Assembly: GCF_900105415.1 (NCBI RefSeq)
Contig: NZ_FNSM01000001.1
Span: 1,240,001 to 1,304,000 of the forward strand
Length of the DNA: 64,000 nucleotides
Reading direction: 5' to 3'
Source of the DNA: Streptomyces sp. TLI_105
GTDB lineage: Bacteria > Actinomycetota > Actinomycetes > Streptomycetales > Streptomycetaceae
Positions 15,375 through 21,380 of this stretch are shown here, piece by piece. The notes beneath the pieces are model-generated. The model had not been told where the DNA came from, did not search any database, and saw nothing but the letters and a program-made list of their open reading frames with translations. Each line of letters opens with the position of its first letter. Positions within the stretch are counted from its first letter, which is position 1. Position numbers and translations under genes: made by a program.

Positions 15375-16259
15375 TCAGCGCGTGTCCGGCTCGTCGTCCG
15401 GCGGCAGCGACCAGGACTCCGTCTCCCGGGCCGGGCGTGTCCGTCCGGGCGTCTCCACCGGCCCGGGCGGCTCCTTCATCGCGTCGGGGCCCTTCCGGGT
15501 GGACCCCCTGGAGGGGTCGGTCCCCATGGACCGGTCTCCCATGGACCGGTCTTCCATCAAGGGGTCGGTCCCCCTGGACGGGGTCGTGCCCATGGACCGA
15601 TCCCTCATGGATCGGTCTTCCATCAACGGGTCGGTCCCCATGGACGGGTCGGTACCCATGGATCGGTCCGTCCCCATGGACGGGTCGGTGCCCGTGGACC
15701 GGCCCGTACCCATGGACGGATCCGTTCCCATGGGCCGGTCGGACCCCATGGTCCCCTCGGTCCCCATGGATCCGGTGCCCGCGGCCGGCCCGGTGCCGGC
15801 GTCCTCGGGGCGGATCCGGCCGCGCCAGGCGCCGGTCGCGTCCCCGTGTTCCTCGATGAAGCCCTTGAACCGCTTGAGGTCGCCCTTGACCCGGCGGTCG
15901 AGCACTCCCATCACGTCGGCGGCCTTCTCCGCCATGCCCTCGGGCTCCACGTCCATCGCGAGCCGTACCCGGGTGTGCGCCTCGTCCAGCGGCTGGAAGC
16001 TGACGACGCCCATCTGCCGGACGTCGCCTCCCATGGTGCGCCAGGCGATGCGCTGGTCCGGGAGCTGGTCGACGATCTCGGTGTCGAACTCCCGCCGGAC
16101 CCCGGCGATCTTGGTCTGCCAGTGACAGTGCCGGTCGTCGATCTGCCGGACGTCCTCGACGCCCTCCATGAAGCGCGGGAACTCCTCGAACTGCGTCCAC
16201 TGGTCGTACACGTTCCGCAGCGGAACGTCCACGTCGATCGTCTGTTCGACCTTGCTCAT
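15375..16259 (-). CDS. SRPBCC (polyketide cyclase/START-like) protein with repetitive disordered tail
   Basis: This 294-residue protein starts at ATG 16259. Residues about 1-145 are an SRPBCC ligand-binding fold of the cyclase/dehydrase type (VEQTIDVDVPLRNVYDQWTQ, FPRFMEGVEDVRQ, then a long C-terminal helix). Residues about 155-265 are a Met/Gly/Thr/Asp/Ser/Arg repeat built on MGTDPSMGTDRS and RSMGDRSMGTDP units. The last 30 residues are acidic and Pro-rich. The core fits small actinobacterial proteins that bind hydrophobic ligands. The tail is unusual and presumably unstructured. A terminator follows the gene. Confidence 0.85.
   Translation of the reverse strand: MSKVEQTIDVDVPLRNVYDQWTQFEEFPRFMEGVEDVRQIDDRHCHWQTKIAGVRREFDTEIVDQLPDQRIAWRTMGGDVRQMGVVSFQPLDEAHTRVRLAMDVEPEGMAEKAADVMGVLDRRVKGDLKRFKGFIEEHGDATGAWRGRIRPEDAGTGPAAGTGSMGTEGTMGSDRPMGTDPSMGTGRSTGTDPSMGTDRSMGTDPSMGTDPLMEDRSMRDRSMGTTPSRGTDPLMEDRSMGDRSMGTDPSRGSTRKGPDAMKEPPGPVETPGRTRPARETESWSLPPDDEPDTR
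15520..15775. repeat. Coding minisatellite in the SRPBCC gene tail
   Basis: About 255 bp of imperfect tandem repeats are built on the 12-bp core CCCATGGACCGG and variants (GTCCCCATGGACGGGTCGGT types), in units of 12-18 bp. All are multiples of three, so copy changes keep the reading frame. Confidence 0.8.
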
Positions 16260-16607: not shown

Positions 16608-17264
16608 TCAGAGGGCGTCCGCGGCGGTACGGAGGTCGGCGACGAGCCCCGCGTACATCTCCTGCCGGTCCCGCGCGCGCAGTACGGCCGAGGGGTGCAC
16701 GGTCGCGAGGACCCGGGTGCCGTCCGCGGCGTCGGGCAGCGGTCTCGGCACGCCCCGGTCGGTGCCGACCCGGAAGGAGGACCCGAGCAGGGCCCGTCCC
16801 GCGGTGGCCCCCAGGACCACGACCAGCTCGGGCGAGACGAGCCGGAGTTCGGCCATGAGCCAGGGCCGGCAGGCGAGGGTCTCGCGCACGCTGGGCGTCT
16901 TGTGGATGCGGCGGCCCCGGGCCTCGTCGCGGACGAACTTGAAGTGCTTGACCGCGTTGGTGACGTACAGGTCCTCCTCGTCGATGCCCGCCTCCGCCAG
17001 GGCGCGGTGGAGCAGCCGTCCGGCGGGTCCCACGAAGGGGAGGCCCTCGCGGTCCTCCTGGTCGCCGGGCTGCTCGCCGACCAGCATCAGCCGCGCGTCC
17101 GGGGCGCCCCGGCCGAAGACCGTCCCGGTCGCGTCGCGGTGGAGGGGGCAGCCCCGGCACTCCGCCGCCGCCTCGCGGTGCGCCGGGAGTCCGCCGCGGC
17201 TCGGCAGATAGGGCGTGGCGTCGTACTCCTCGGGGGCGGTCCCCCGGTCACCGGTACCGGCCAT
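16608..17264 (-). CDS. udgX: UdgX-type uracil-DNA glycosylase
   Basis: This 218-residue enzyme of the uracil-DNA glycosylase superfamily (family 4-like) starts at ATG 17264 behind GGGAGG. Four Cys in CRGCPLH and later positions suit a [4Fe-4S] cluster. Motif A is GEQPGDQEDREG and motif B is ATVHPSAVLR. The diagnostic loop GRRIHKTP replaces the family-4 sequence. Its His forms a covalent bond with the abasic sugar in Mycobacterium UdgX, leaving the protein cross-linked to uracil sites. A DNA-repair or uracil-tagging role follows by homology. No other repair gene is adjacent. Confidence 0.92.
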   Translation of the reverse strand: MAGTGDRGTAPEEYDATPYLPSRGGLPAHREAAAECRGCPLHRDATGTVFGRGAPDARLMLVGEQPGDQEDREGLPFVGPAGRLLHRALAEAGIDEEDLYVTNAVKHFKFVRDEARGRRIHKTPSVRETLACRPWLMAELRLVSPELVVVLGATAGRALLGSSFRVGTDRGVPRPLPDAADGTRVLATVHPSAVLRARDRQEMYAGLVADLRTAADAL

Positions 17265-17354
17265 CGCGCACCTCCCGGGAGCGGTCCCGTCCGGCCGGTG
17301 CCGGCACGTACCGCTGACGCGCGGGCGTGTGCCCGCCGGGCACCGCGCGGAAAC

Positions 17355-17466
17355 GGCCGCGCGCACAGCTCCGCGCCGGGTCGGCCGCGCGCGCAGCTCC
17401 GCGCCGGGTCGGCCGCGCGCGCAGCTCCGCGCCGGGTCGGCCGCGCGCACAGCTCCGCGCCGGGTC
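17355..17466. repeat. Four tandem 28-bp repeats
   Basis: Copies lie at 17355-17382, 17383-17410, 17411-17438 and 17439-17466, followed by a 10-bp partial copy. They differ only at one internal position (GCGCAC versus GCGCGC). Each copy contains CAGCTCCGCGCCGGGTCGG across its junction. The 28-bp period is not a multiple of three, which argues against coding. There are no spacers, so this is not a CRISPR. Confidence 0.9.
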
Positions 17467-17597
17467 GGCCGCGCACGGACGGGTGGCCCCGCGCAGGAGT
17501 GGCCGCGCACGACGGCCGTCCCCGCGCGGGGACGGCCTCGGGCGGGGGCGGGAGCGGCCGCGGGCCGGGGCGGAAGCGGTCGCGGGCCGGGGTGGCG

Positions 17598-17622
17598 GCA
17601 TGCCGGGCCCTGAGGCGGGTAG
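17598..17622 (+). promoter_or_regulatory. SigB-like promoter of the ligase-CDGSH-oxygenase operon
   Basis: GCAT (17598-17601), a 15-bp spacer and GGGTAG (17617-17622) lie 29 nt before ATG 17652. Confidence 0.6.
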
Positions 17623-17651: not shown

Positions 17652-18770
17652 ATGAAGATCCTGACGATGGGTGTCGAGGAAGAGTTCGTGCTGGTCGACC
17701 GGGTGACACGGGCCCCGGTCAACCGGGCCCCGGAGGTCATCCGGCGGGCGAGCCCCGAACTCGGCGGGCAGGTGCAGACCGAGTTCTTCAACGCGCAGAT
17801 CGAGATCTGCACGAAGGCCACGGCGAGCCGCCGCACCCTGCGCGACGAACTCTCCTGGCTGCGCGCGACCGTGGGCGCTGCCGCGCACGACGTGCACTGC
17901 ATGCCGGTCGCCTGCGGCACTCCCGTGCTGCCGCCCGAGGAGCCGCTGACGGTGACCGACACCGAGCGGTACCGTCTGATGGCCAGCCGCTTCGCCTCGC
18001 TGGTCACCCGCGCGGACGGCGTCGCGCGCGACGACGGGCTCGTCTGCGGCTGTCACGTCCACATCGGGACGCTGGACCGCGAGCACGCCCTCGCGCTCGC
18101 CCAGCACATACGGCCGTGGCTGCCCGTGCTCCAGGCGCTGGCGGGGAACTCGCCCTACGCCGGCCGGCAGGACACCGGCTACCAGAGCTGGCGCGCCGTC
18201 GAGCACGCCAGGTGGCCGACCGTCGGCCCGACCCCGGTCCTCGACGAGTCCCAGTACCTCGCCCACGTCGCCCGCCTGGTCAGGGACGGCACGCTCCTCG
18301 ACAACCGGATGGTGTACTGGCACGCCCGGCCCTCGGAGCACGTGCCGACCCTGGAGGTCCGGGTCGCCGACGCCAACGCGGAACTCGACACGGTGGTGCT
18401 GCTCGCGATCCTGGTCCGCGGCCTCGCCGCCACCCTGCTGCCCCGCGTCGACGCCGGCGTCCCCGCGCCCGTGATCCCCGGCCCGACGCTGCTCAGGGCC
18501 CACCGGCTCGCCGCCTCCCAGGGCATCGCGGGCACCGGTCTCGATCCGGTCGACGGCCGGGAGCGGCCCGCCGCGAGGCTCCTCGACACGCTGATCGCCC
18601 TCGCCCGGCCGGGCCTCGACGTCACCGGCGACACCGACTGGGTGTGCGAGCAGTGGGAGCGGATCCGCGCGGACGGCGGTGGCGCCGCCCGTCAGCGCGA
18701 CGTCTTCCGCCGGCACGGCCGGTTCAGCGCTGTGGTCGACGCGCTGGCCTCGGCGACGGTGGGGAGCTGA
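17652..18770 (+). CDS. Glutamate-cysteine ligase family 2 (YbdK/EgtA-like carboxylate-amine ligase)
   Basis: This 372-residue ATP-dependent ligase starts at ATG 17652 behind GAGGAGGAG. The N-terminal MGVEEEFVLVDR holds the Mg-binding Glu residues of the family. QTEFFNAQIEICT, CGCHVHIG and a later LEVRVADANAEL complete the active-site set. Family members join the gamma-carboxyl of glutamate, or another acid, to an amine or cysteine. Streptomyces makes mycothiol, not glutathione, so the true substrate is open. It is the first gene of a tight four-gene run with a methyltransferase (4-bp gap), a CDGSH protein and a diiron-oxygenase-like protein. Confidence 0.9.
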   Translation: MKILTMGVEEEFVLVDRVTRAPVNRAPEVIRRASPELGGQVQTEFFNAQIEICTKATASRRTLRDELSWLRATVGAAAHDVHCMPVACGTPVLPPEEPLTVTDTERYRLMASRFASLVTRADGVARDDGLVCGCHVHIGTLDREHALALAQHIRPWLPVLQALAGNSPYAGRQDTGYQSWRAVEHARWPTVGPTPVLDESQYLAHVARLVRDGTLLDNRMVYWHARPSEHVPTLEVRVADANAELDTVVLLAILVRGLAATLLPRVDAGVPAPVIPGPTLLRAHRLAASQGIAGTGLDPVDGRERPAARLLDTLIALARPGLDVTGDTDWVCEQWERIRADGGGAARQRDVFRRHGRFSAVVDALASATVGS

Positions 18771-18774
18771 TCGC

Positions 18775-19482
18775 ATGGGTTCCCCCGTCTCCGTACGCCG
18801 CTCCGCTCCCGCCGGGGACCAGCCGGTCGACCTCCGGGTGTGCCGTCTCCCCGGCGTGTACGCGCCCCAGGTGGACACCGGACTCCTGGTGGAGCAGGTG
18901 CGGCGCGAGAAGCTGCGGCCCGGAGTCCGCTCGCTCGACCTGTGCACGGGCACGGGCATCGTCGCGGTCGCCGCCGCCCTGCGGGGCGCGCGGGCCACCG
19001 CCGTCGACATCTCGCGCGCCGCGATCGCCTCCTCCCGGCTCAACGCGCTGCTGCACGGCTGCCGGATCCGGGCGCTGCGCGGCGACCTGGACGGGCCGGT
19101 GGGGCGGGAACGCTTCGACCTCGTCACCGTGAACCCGCCGTACGTGCCCAGCGAGGACCCTCGGCCGCCCGCGCGCGGCGCCCGCCGGAGCTGGGACGCC
19201 GGGTCCGACGGCCGGCTGCTCCTCGACCGGGTCTGCGCGCGGGCGCCCCGCCTCCTGACGCCCTCCGGAGTGCTGCTGCTCGTCCAGTCCTCGCTCTCCG
19301 GGGTCGCCCCCACGCTCGACGCGCTCGGGCGGGCCGGGCTGCGGGCCCGTGTCGTCGAGCGGCGCACCGAGCCGTTCGGTCCGGTGATGTCGGCCCGGGC
19401 CGACTGGTTCGCGGCCCGGGGCCTGGTCCCGTCGGGGACGCGCACGGAGCAGCTCGTCGTGATCCGCGCGTGCCGGCCGTGA
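18775..19482 (+). CDS. HemK2/MTQ2-type methyltransferase
   Basis: This 235-residue SAM-dependent class I methyltransferase starts at ATG 18775, four bases after the ligase stop. Motif I is LDLCTGTGIVAVAAA, an acidic residue follows in TAVDIS, and the catalytic NPPY motif is VNPPYVPSED (about residues 121-130). NPPY enzymes methylate glutamine, planar nitrogens or adenine. HemK2-like members modify release factors, but the operon context suggests a small-molecule or peptide substrate. The C-terminal VVERRTEPFGPVMSARADWF is typical of the subfamily. Confidence 0.88.
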   Translation: MGSPVSVRRSAPAGDQPVDLRVCRLPGVYAPQVDTGLLVEQVRREKLRPGVRSLDLCTGTGIVAVAAALRGARATAVDISRAAIASSRLNALLHGCRIRALRGDLDGPVGRERFDLVTVNPPYVPSEDPRPPARGARRSWDAGSDGRLLLDRVCARAPRLLTPSGVLLLVQSSLSGVAPTLDALGRAGLRARVVERRTEPFGPVMSARADWFAARGLVPSGTRTEQLVVIRACRP

Positions 19483-19549
19483 TTCGAAGCCGGAGAGCCG
19501 GGCAGTCGCGCGATACCGACGCAATCCGAGCTGATGGGCGGTGTGTGTG

Positions 19550-19897
19550 ATGTCTGCTTCCCCGAACGAGGGCACCCCGAGGGTGAGGATCCCGGAGGAC
19601 GGCGGATCGGACGGCCCGGGCAGCGCCCGGCCCCGGACGTCCCCGCCCCGGTTCCGTCCGCTCCCCGAGGGTCCGCTGCTCGTGGAGGGGCCCGCGGAGA
19701 TCGTCATGCCCGACGGTTCGGTGATCCGCTGCGAGCGGCCCGTCATGGCCCTGTGCACCTGTCGGCGGAGCCTGCGGGCGCCGTTCTGCGACACCAGCCA
19801 CCGCCCGCGCCTCCGCAGCCGCACCGGCGCGCCGAAGGCGGCCCGGGGCGCCCCACGCCCGGCGCGGGACACGGCCGGGGAGGCGGAGACGTCATGA
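19550..19897 (+). CDS. CDGSH iron-sulfur protein
   Basis: This 115-residue soluble protein carries a CDGSH-type [2Fe-2S] site near residues 68-85: CTCRRSLRAPFCDTSH, which supplies three Cys and one His. The N-terminal half is Pro/Gly-rich and precedes a small beta core (VEGPAEIVMPDGSVIRC). Proteins of this type transfer electrons or clusters. The start is ATG 19550 and the stop overlaps the next gene's ATG (ATGA), so the protein and the diiron-oxygenase-like protein are translationally coupled, a sign of functional pairing. Confidence 0.92.
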   Translation: MSASPNEGTPRVRIPEDGGSDGPGSARPRTSPPRFRPLPEGPLLVEGPAEIVMPDGSVIRCERPVMALCTCRRSLRAPFCDTSHRPRLRSRTGAPKAARGAPRPARDTAGEAETS

Positions 19898-20919
19898 CGC
19901 TGCTCCCGACGGCCGTCACGGCACGGCCCGAGGCCCCCGAGGCCCGAGGCGAGATCTCCCGCATGGTCCGGAGCCGGCTGCTGGGCGGCGGCCGGCTGCC
20001 CCTGGCGGCGGACATCGCGCGCTCCTCCCCGTACGGGGAGGACCTCCAGCTCGCCCTCCACCTCTGTTACGAGCTCCACTACCGGGGCTTCGCGGGCGTC
20101 CCCGACACCCTGGAGTGGGACCCCGGTCTGCTCCGGACCCGGGCCCTCATGGAGCACCGCTTCGAGAGCGCGCTGCGCCACGACTGCCGCCACCGCGCGG
20201 GCGTCGACGAGGCGCTGGCCGCCCTCCTCGTGGAGCCGGTCGACGGCACGGGCGTCTCCCACTTCCTGGCCTCCTCGGGCGAGCCGTGGCACCTGCGCGA
20301 GTACGTCGCGCTGCGCTCCGTGCACCAGCTGCGGGAGGCCGATCCGCACCTGTGGGTGGTCCCCCGGCTGAGCGGCCGCGCCAAGGCGGCGATGGTGGCC
20401 GTCGAGTACGACGAGTACGGCTGCGGGCGGCCCGAACGGATGCACTCCCGGCTCTACGCGGAGCTCATGGCCGATCTGGGCCTCGACCCCGCGTACGGGC
20501 GCCATGTGGACACGGCCGGCGCCGAGGTCCTCGCGGCCTCGAACCTGATGTCGATGTTCGGCCTGCACCGGAGGCTGCGCGGGGCGCTCGTGGGGCACTT
20601 CGCCGTCGTGGAGACGACGTCGCCGCCCGCCGCCGCCCGCATCGCCGCGGCGCTGCGCAGGACCGGCGCCGGACCGGCCGCGGAGCGGTACTACGAGGAG
20701 CACGTGGAGGCCGACGCCGTCCACGAGCAGATCGTCCGCCGTGAGGTCGTCGGCGGCCTCCTCGAGGACGAGCCGGACCTGGCCGACGACGTCGCCTTCG
20801 GCATCGCCGCGACCTCCTTCCTGGAGGACCGGCTCGGCGGCCGGGTGGTGGACGCCTGGTCGCGGGGCGAGAGCGCCCTGCGCGCGCCCCTGCCGCAGCC
20901 GTCCGGGAACGAACCGTGA
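19894..20919 (+). CDS. Iron-containing redox protein (heme-oxygenase-like diiron oxygenase family)
   Basis: This 341-residue all-helical protein of the HDO superfamily (UndA, SznF, BesC relatives) has typical candidate ligand helices: ALHLCYELHYRG, WHLREYVALRSVHQL, VAVEYDEYGCG and YEEHVEADAVHEQI. Together these offer the expected Glu, His and Asp pattern for a labile diiron site. HDOs oxidise amino-acid or fatty-acid derived substrates with O2, by C-C cleavage, N-oxygenation or desaturation. The reaction here is unknown. It overlaps the CDGSH gene by 4 bp, which may supply electrons or protect the cluster. Confidence 0.87.
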   Translation: MTLLPTAVTARPEAPEARGEISRMVRSRLLGGGRLPLAADIARSSPYGEDLQLALHLCYELHYRGFAGVPDTLEWDPGLLRTRALMEHRFESALRHDCRHRAGVDEALAALLVEPVDGTGVSHFLASSGEPWHLREYVALRSVHQLREADPHLWVVPRLSGRAKAAMVAVEYDEYGCGRPERMHSRLYAELMADLGLDPAYGRHVDTAGAEVLAASNLMSMFGLHRRLRGALVGHFAVVETTSPPAAARIAAALRRTGAGPAAERYYEEHVEADAVHEQIVRREVVGGLLEDEPDLADDVAFGIAATSFLEDRLGGRVVDAWSRGESALRAPLPQPSGNEP

Positions 20920-21380
20920 GGACCCGCACGACCGTCGGGGACGTGCTCCTCGACGATCTGCGGGCCTGGGGGTGCGCCACGTCTTCGGCTGTCCCGACCT
21001 GGACGACCGGGTGTCGGCGTGGGTGCGGACGGACGACGAGCCGTCTCCTCGTGGAGGCGCGCCACGAGGAGACGGCGGCCTTCGAGGCCGTCGGGTACGC
21101 CACGTTCTCCGGTCACGTAGGCGTCTGCGCCGCCTCGTCCGCGCCGGGCACCGTGCGGCTCCTCCGGGGCCTGCACGACGCGCGGCCGGACGGGGCGCCG
21201 GTGGTCGCCCTGCTCGGCACGGACCTGACCCGGGCGACGACGGACCCGGCCGGGCGGGTCGGGGCCCTCTCGGACGGGGCCCGGACCTTCGCGGACGGGG
21301 CCGCGGGGCGCCTCCCCCGGCCCGGCCGGCCCGTCGGCCTCAGGTCCGTGCCGCCCGGGTGCGCAGCGCACGGGCCGTGA
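20916..21380 (+). pseudogene. Decayed duplicate of a TPP-dependent pyruvate oxidase-like enzyme (N-terminal remnant)
   Basis: The frame opens at GTG 20916 (GTGA overlap with the HDO stop) with VGDVLLDDLRAWG. Two compensating shifts (about 20970 and 21048) put RHVFGCPDLDDRVSAWVRTD in another frame. The original frame then resumes with EARHEETAAFEAVGYATFSG to DGAPVVALLG. This matches the first 105 residues of the intact TPP enzyme at 26748, including the catalytic Glu region. After about 21250 no homology remains, against 598 residues in the intact gene. A 154-residue product could still be made but would lack the TPP-binding domain. Confidence 0.82.

Follow-up and report, generated by a model that had tools for sequence, protein, structure and literature searches.

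A recurrent pairing of a heme-oxygenase-like diiron protein with a CDGSH iron-sulfur protein suggests a new enzyme and electron-donor partnership under stress

Within a 64,000-nucleotide stretch of the Streptomyces sp. TLI_105 genome (the whole of which is referred to here as the window), a four-gene operon on the plus strand ends with genes for a 115-residue CDGSH iron-sulfur protein (19550..19897; PF09360, 7e-16) and a diiron-oxygenase-like protein of the heme-oxygenase-like diiron oxygenase (HDO) superfamily (19894..20919; PF14518, 1.5e-58). These two genes are the core of the module. The uncharacterised HDO-CDGSH pair suggests a new kind of partnership between an enzyme and its electron donor under stress. 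The reading we favour, to which we give about an even chance, is a stress-regulated redox module of Actinomycetota in which an N-oxygenase-like diiron HDO is served by the CDGSH protein as its dedicated electron donor. No description of the pair was found in the literature searched, a search that most subscription papers lay outside.

Conservation of the pair and of the diiron site

We surveyed the neighbourhoods of 160 HDO loci: 40 from genomes with strong HDO scores in the class but outside the genus (33 genera; L057-L096), 20 from HDO genomes within the window's own genus (L097-L116), 80 named loci that are almost all from Streptomyces and are the best 80 of 514 (L126-L205), and 20 from 19 genomes outside the class (L216-L235). 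A gene was counted as near when profile searches placed it within 4 kb of the HDO gene. By this measure a CDGSH gene is near HDO in 141 of the 160 neighbourhoods, comprising 38/40 of the class outside the genus, 20/20 of the genus, 73/80 of the named loci and 10/20 outside the class. None was near the 20 remote PF14518 loci that served as the control set (0/20; L244-L263). The gene orders are shuffled. HDO-methyltransferase-CDGSH (39) and methyltransferase-CDGSH-HDO (25) are the commonest among the 80 named loci, and in other loci the genes are divergent, convergent or interrupted, which indicates that the link between HDO and CDGSH outlasted repeated rearrangement.

Whole-genome searches of the same 40 HDO-positive class genomes (33 genera) found a single CDGSH gene in each of 38; the other two had none. 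All 38 sole copies lie no more than 3.9 kb from HDO, start to start, with a median of 1.06 kb. By comparison, a CDGSH gene is present in 4 of 20 HDO-negative genomes (Fisher p = 4e-9, kinship uncorrected). The window's own 8.9-Mb genome holds two PF14518 matches and two CDGSH matches, one pair of which is adjacent, at this locus.

The HDO itself is widespread. Of 150 genomes in the genus, 125 have a match at E <= 1e-3 and 119 have one at E < 1e-90, the window's own genome included; the named close relatives come from Streptomyces, and S. venezuelae is among the species that carry the HDO. The class survey gave matches in 219/394 genomes and 64/137 genera, remote paralogues included, and the phylum sample in 73/296 genomes, with full-length matches also in genomes outside the class.

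The window HDO has the heme-oxygenase-like fold of the superfamily (PF14518), and seven ligands are predicted: E148, E174, H184, E240, H270, D274 and H277. Alignment with SznF and RohS positions the last six as a 3 His / 3 carboxylate set, and E148 aligns with the Glu of LSEASP in SznF and of LTEAQ in RohS. The six-ligand set and E148 are each kept in 161/161 HDOs, as are all seven positions together. The SznF residue is presumably the extra seventh ligand of that enzyme, the Glu that an auxiliary helix contributes in 3H/4C HDOs, an assignment made by elimination. The closest solved structures, by sequence and structure matches, are the N-oxygenases HrmI, RohS and SznF. The original prediction for this DNA, made from the letters alone, had drawn parallels with UndA, SznF and BesC; SznF is indeed among the nearest relatives, but of the HDOs found it is the three N-oxygenases, not UndA and BesC, that come closest. 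It had also named two grounds for abandoning its proposal, namely no conserved co-occurrence beyond close relatives and loss of the diiron ligands in orthologues. The neighbourhood survey that it called for finds the genes associated far beyond close relatives and the ligands retained, so both grounds fall away. The remote PF14518 paralogues of the control set, one of them in the window's own genome at 6.50 Mb, keep the six core ligands and vary at the seventh position.

The CDGSH protein carries one C-X-C...C...H motif, CTCRRSLRAPFCDTSHR, with a K/R residue after the histidine (scored in the window protein), which places it among the type 4 CDGSH (CISD) proteins. A lenient form of the C-X-C...C...H pattern is kept in 141/141 CDGSH profile matches near HDO. 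Its best solved relative is 3tbm (6.9e-5); the structure of a bacterial type 4 CDGSH protein was solved in 2011 (PMC3174974).

Accessory genes, promoter and surroundings

Upstream of the pair, the operon encodes a 372-residue YbdK-type carboxylate-amine ligase (GCS2; 17652..18770; PF04107, 1.1e-35) and a 235-residue HemK2/MTQ2-like NPPY N-methyltransferase (18775..19482; PF05175, 9.5e-15), both on the plus strand. Checking the sequence and open reading frames of the window bore out the coordinates, families and tight packing of the original prediction: a 4-bp gap between ligase and methyltransferase, a 67-bp gap from methyltransferase to CDGSH, and a 4-bp overlap between CDGSH and HDO. An alternative upstream GTG start at 19541 would shorten the 67-bp gap to 58 bp. 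What did not hold was the proposal of a fixed four-gene pathway, as only HDO and CDGSH form a near-constant core.

The methyltransferase is a lineage-dependent third member, found in Streptomyces and some other genera. It scores 101.7 bits against TIGR00537 (cut-off 87), contains NPPY as expected of HemK2/MTQ2 proteins, and has human N6AMT1 (8cnc, 3.1e-11) as its nearest solved relative. A methyltransferase gene is near HDO in 18/20 loci of the genus, 74/80 named loci, 14/40 of the class outside the genus and 4/20 outside the class. Clear orthologues number 10/40 among class loci beyond the genus, with 45-57% identity to the window protein, and 4/20 outside the class (48-53%), with a range of 45-77% across all loci other than the 80 named ones; other relatives in the window genome do not exceed 41% identity, and that over shorter segments. 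The [NDS]PPY motif is present in 106/110 methyltransferase matches near HDO, the misses being L074, L086, L090 and L102.

The ligase is an occasional member. It scores 201.8 bits against TIGR02050 (cut-off 176.4), consistent with a YbdK assignment, and falls narrowly below the cut-off of NF010041 (331.5 versus 332); it matches E. coli YbdK (1r8g) at 1.2e-17 and is one of four GCS2 matches in the window genome. GCS2 genes are near HDO in 16/160 loci: 4/20 in the genus (one a fragment), 5/80 named (6/80 by tblastn), 3/40 in the class and 4/20 outside it. The ones near HDO outside the class share about 30-33% identity with the window ligase, and L230, the one tested, fits another NCBIfam model best; the ligase is thus a recurring, optional guest.

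In other lineages, different genes occupy the position next to HDO. A GT2-like gene, usually overlapping or directly following HDO, is near in 13/40 class loci (12 by profile). It is fused to HDO in L087 (679 residues) and is also found in L071, L072, L074, L077, L078, L081, L082, L085, L093, L095 and L096; its Pfam matches are weak (Glycos_transf_2, 0.009). By BLAST, none of the 40 class loci has both this gene and the methyltransferase, whose place it seems to take. An EgtD-like methyltransferase follows HDO in 2/40 class loci. Downstream in the window, a plus-strand relic of a thiamine pyrophosphate (TPP)-dependent enzyme (20916..21380, by domain search) overlaps the end of HDO by 4 bases and keeps only about the first 100 of some 590 residues; it is probably not part of the module. 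Full-length relatives of this enzyme lie up to about 6 kb from HDO in L058, L075 and L115.

Ahead of the ligase, with which the window operon starts, the sequence GCAT-N15-GGGTAG (17598..17622, plus strand) ends 29 bases before the ATG and is a plausible candidate for a SigB/SigF-type promoter. Its GGGTAG is one base off the GGGTAY of the SigB-type consensus GNNT-N14-16-GGGTAY, and is the -10 element of the mapped S. coelicolor promoters SCO1566p, SCO7446p and SCO1276p (PMC8346170, Table 2). The strict consensus was not found before the window operon. A relaxed form, carrying GGGTA[CTG], has 10 occurrences in the 64-kb window when both strands are counted, which puts the chance of one falling in the 150 bp before the ligase gene at about 0.01. 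The pattern is stronger in the 48 named loci in which HDO is the first gene: GGGTAY lies in the 170 bases around or before the HDO start in 41/48, compared to 4.9% of random 170-base stretches from the same loci, and the full GNNT-N14-16-GGGTAY is present in 24/48. The ATG is 9 or 10 bases past the box in 39 of the 41, a spacing that suggests a leaderless SigB/SigF-type transcript for HDO-first operons. GGGTAY precedes HDO in 33/69 cases versus 84/643 other gene starts of the same loci. Outside the genus, GNNT-N13-17-GGGTA[CT] is found in 13/60 HDO upstream regions (three probably within a neighbouring gene) versus 1.3% of random stretches.

Stress-type genes accompany the module on some annotated plasmids. 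Kitasatospora has SpoIIE/STAS/ATP-binding regulators and CsbD beside it, Streptomyces CA-256286 has two SigB/SigF/SigG-family factors, and NBC_00984 has gas-vesicle genes. None of these was found in the stretches examined of the Curtobacterium and Gordonia plasmids. Around the operon in the window, domain searches identified UDG-family, CBS-domain and DJ-1/PfpI proteins, and further open reading frames were read from their translations, without a family search, as a putative SRPBCC protein, an LLM oxidoreductase and a HAD phosphatase. The UDG-family gene (16608-17222, UDG domain) has a counterpart near the module in L117 (14407-14966, annotated UdgX). Between it and the operon, a GC-rich tandem repeat with a 28-bp unit is present in approximately four copies (17354-17474, 97% matches), with other short repeats up to 17592. 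An 18-bp / 66-bp tandem repeat at 15496-15776, in the minus-strand putative SRPBCC reading frame, encodes a long Met-Gly-Thr-Asp-type repeat in the C-terminal part. Among the 80 named loci, a Ppx/GppA phosphatase gene is near in 29 and a subtilisin-inhibitor-like gene in 31.

Proposed mechanism and alternative explanations

Gene order, co-occurrence, ligand conservation, the fold match and promoter-box conservation in one gene arrangement can be read directly from sequence. From them we infer a scheme in which iron binding, electron transfer, N-oxygenation, the order of steps (amide formation, methylation and then oxidation in the original prediction) and the stress role are all conditional. 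The HDO would bind two irons through seven ligands (3 His / 4 carboxylate), as in the SznF type, activate O2 and most likely oxygenate a small molecule that contains nitrogen. The product of the adjacent gene, the CDGSH protein, would be a dedicated [2Fe-2S] carrier that re-reduces the diiron site between turnovers. The NPPY N-methyltransferase in some lineages, and occasionally the YbdK-type amide ligase, would prepare or finish the substrate, and SigB/SigF-family sigma factors would transcribe the module, at least in many Streptomyces.

Several observations weigh against this scheme. The pairing is not absolute: a CDGSH gene was not found near HDO in 19/160 loci, at least one of which is cut by a contig end. 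These include half of the loci outside the class, and whole-genome searches found none in the HDO-positive class genomes G472 and G283. HDO can evidently manage without CDGSH. The window genome has its second CDGSH gene 270 kb away. The 20 HDO-negative genomes were the first listed in the class survey, and some are small or incomplete (three at 72-80%). The HDO-first loci are related to one another, and the genus and named sets may have strains in common. With regard to the promoter, the box is also enriched in antisense before HDO (25/69 versus 77/643), because it is often a palindrome, GGGTACCC. Before methyltransferase starts there is no enrichment of GGGTAY (4/32 versus 84/643 in the control) or of the full consensus (1/32 versus 35/643). 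For the SigB-like promoter of the original prediction, a box of this type thus has good support upstream of HDO-first Streptomyces-type operons and is a plausible feature of the window, but shows no enrichment at methyltransferase starts. As for the active site, the best fold match, HrmI, is a six-ligand enzyme (PMC13108848), so fold rank leaves the seven-ligand class unsettled. The HDOs studied so far need no protein effector (PMC13108848), and the CDGSH protein may move iron or clusters instead of electrons.

One alternative, which we consider rather unlikely, is a protective oxidase without a product, comparable to Acinetobacter DtpC: supplied with electrons by CDGSH, the HDO would remove O2, peroxide or free iron in dried or stressed cells, and the other genes would be hitchhikers in a stress island. 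DtpC is a predicted HDO that is co-transcribed with katE and limits H2O2 in dried cells; it needs E143, H153 and H232 (PMC13232832), and the E143-H153 spacing equals that of E174-H184 in the window HDO. The SigB-type boxes before HDO fit this explanation, as does the plain count of 3/5 annotated plasmid loci with SigB-family factors or regulators, CsbD or gas-vesicle genes nearby. Catalase genes are near in 2/40 and 3/80 loci, which are few, and in 0/20 of a third set. Conservation of the seven-ligand site and the recurrence of an NPPY methyltransferase suggest, instead, that there is a substrate.

Equally doubtful is that CDGSH serves as an iron or cluster donor, or as a repair factor, which fills or maintains the labile diiron site in HDO under stress rather than donating electrons. 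In its favour, HDO clusters are labile (PMC13108848) and low pH destabilises CDGSH clusters (PMC3174974). The near one-to-one genomic pairing would also suit such a role. Against it, HDOs accept added iron in vitro. MboA does so, and in MboA-MboB the partner of an HDO acts as a redox partner (PMC13185094).

The favoured redox module could also be extended, speculatively and with a low probability, to an ancient N-methylation/N-oxygenation route switched on by general stress. Like streptozotocin formation, it would methylate a nitrogen and then oxygenate nitrogen with a seven-ligand HDO. The product would be a small molecule for protection or signalling, and CDGSH proteins across the phylum would mainly be dedicated electron donors for this one oxygenase. 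If so, a CDGSH protein would for the first time be assigned to an oxygenase. Least probable is action of the methyltransferase and HDO on protein or RNA: HemK2/MTQ2 relatives methylate glutamine in release factors, and both the TIGR00537 match above cut-off and the proximity to N6AMT1 fit, but a clear methyltransferase orthologue accompanies HDO in just 10/40 and 4/20 loci outside the genus.

Comparison with known systems

Of the large HDO superfamily, approximately a dozen members have been validated functionally, and most of these belong to natural-product pathways (PMC13108848). SznF, RohS and HrmI share with the window HDO the fold, the core ligands and the DExGxG...H and HxxxDxxH motifs, and SznF and RohS also share the Glu aligned with E148. 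SznF provides a precedent for N-oxygenation of N-methylarginine. These enzymes differ from the window HDO in working in antibiotic or natural-product pathways and are just 16-20% identical to it; SznF has a cupin domain that the window HDO lacks, and the descriptions consulted mention no CDGSH partner for any of the three. The methyltransferase and ligase belong to the families of HemK2/MTQ2 (N6AMT1) and E. coli YbdK, respectively.

DtpC of Acinetobacter baumannii resembles the window HDO in tying an HDO to stress and desiccation, by its published description, and is paired with a catalase, not with CDGSH (PMC13232832). A precedent for such a pair is mangotoxin acetylenase MboA with its reductase MboB, an HDO with a dedicated Fe2S2 redox partner (PMC13185094). 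MboB is a flavin and Fe2S2 reductase that uses NAD(P)H, whereas the window CDGSH protein consists of that one domain and would depend on a separate reductase. If the HDO-CDGSH redox pair is real, it would be, after MboA-MboB, a second type of HDO with a dedicated redox partner, in an HDO branch that is spread through Actinomycetota, tied to one partner and, in many Streptomyces, preceded by a stress-type promoter box. Type 4 CDGSH proteins are described as common in Actinobacteria, with a single motif and a basic residue after the His ligand as in the window's, and the available text gives no partner or function for them (PMC3174974). The window's CDGSH protein, in contrast, is tied to an HDO, and the near one-to-one pairing makes the role of type 4 CDGSH proteins directly testable.

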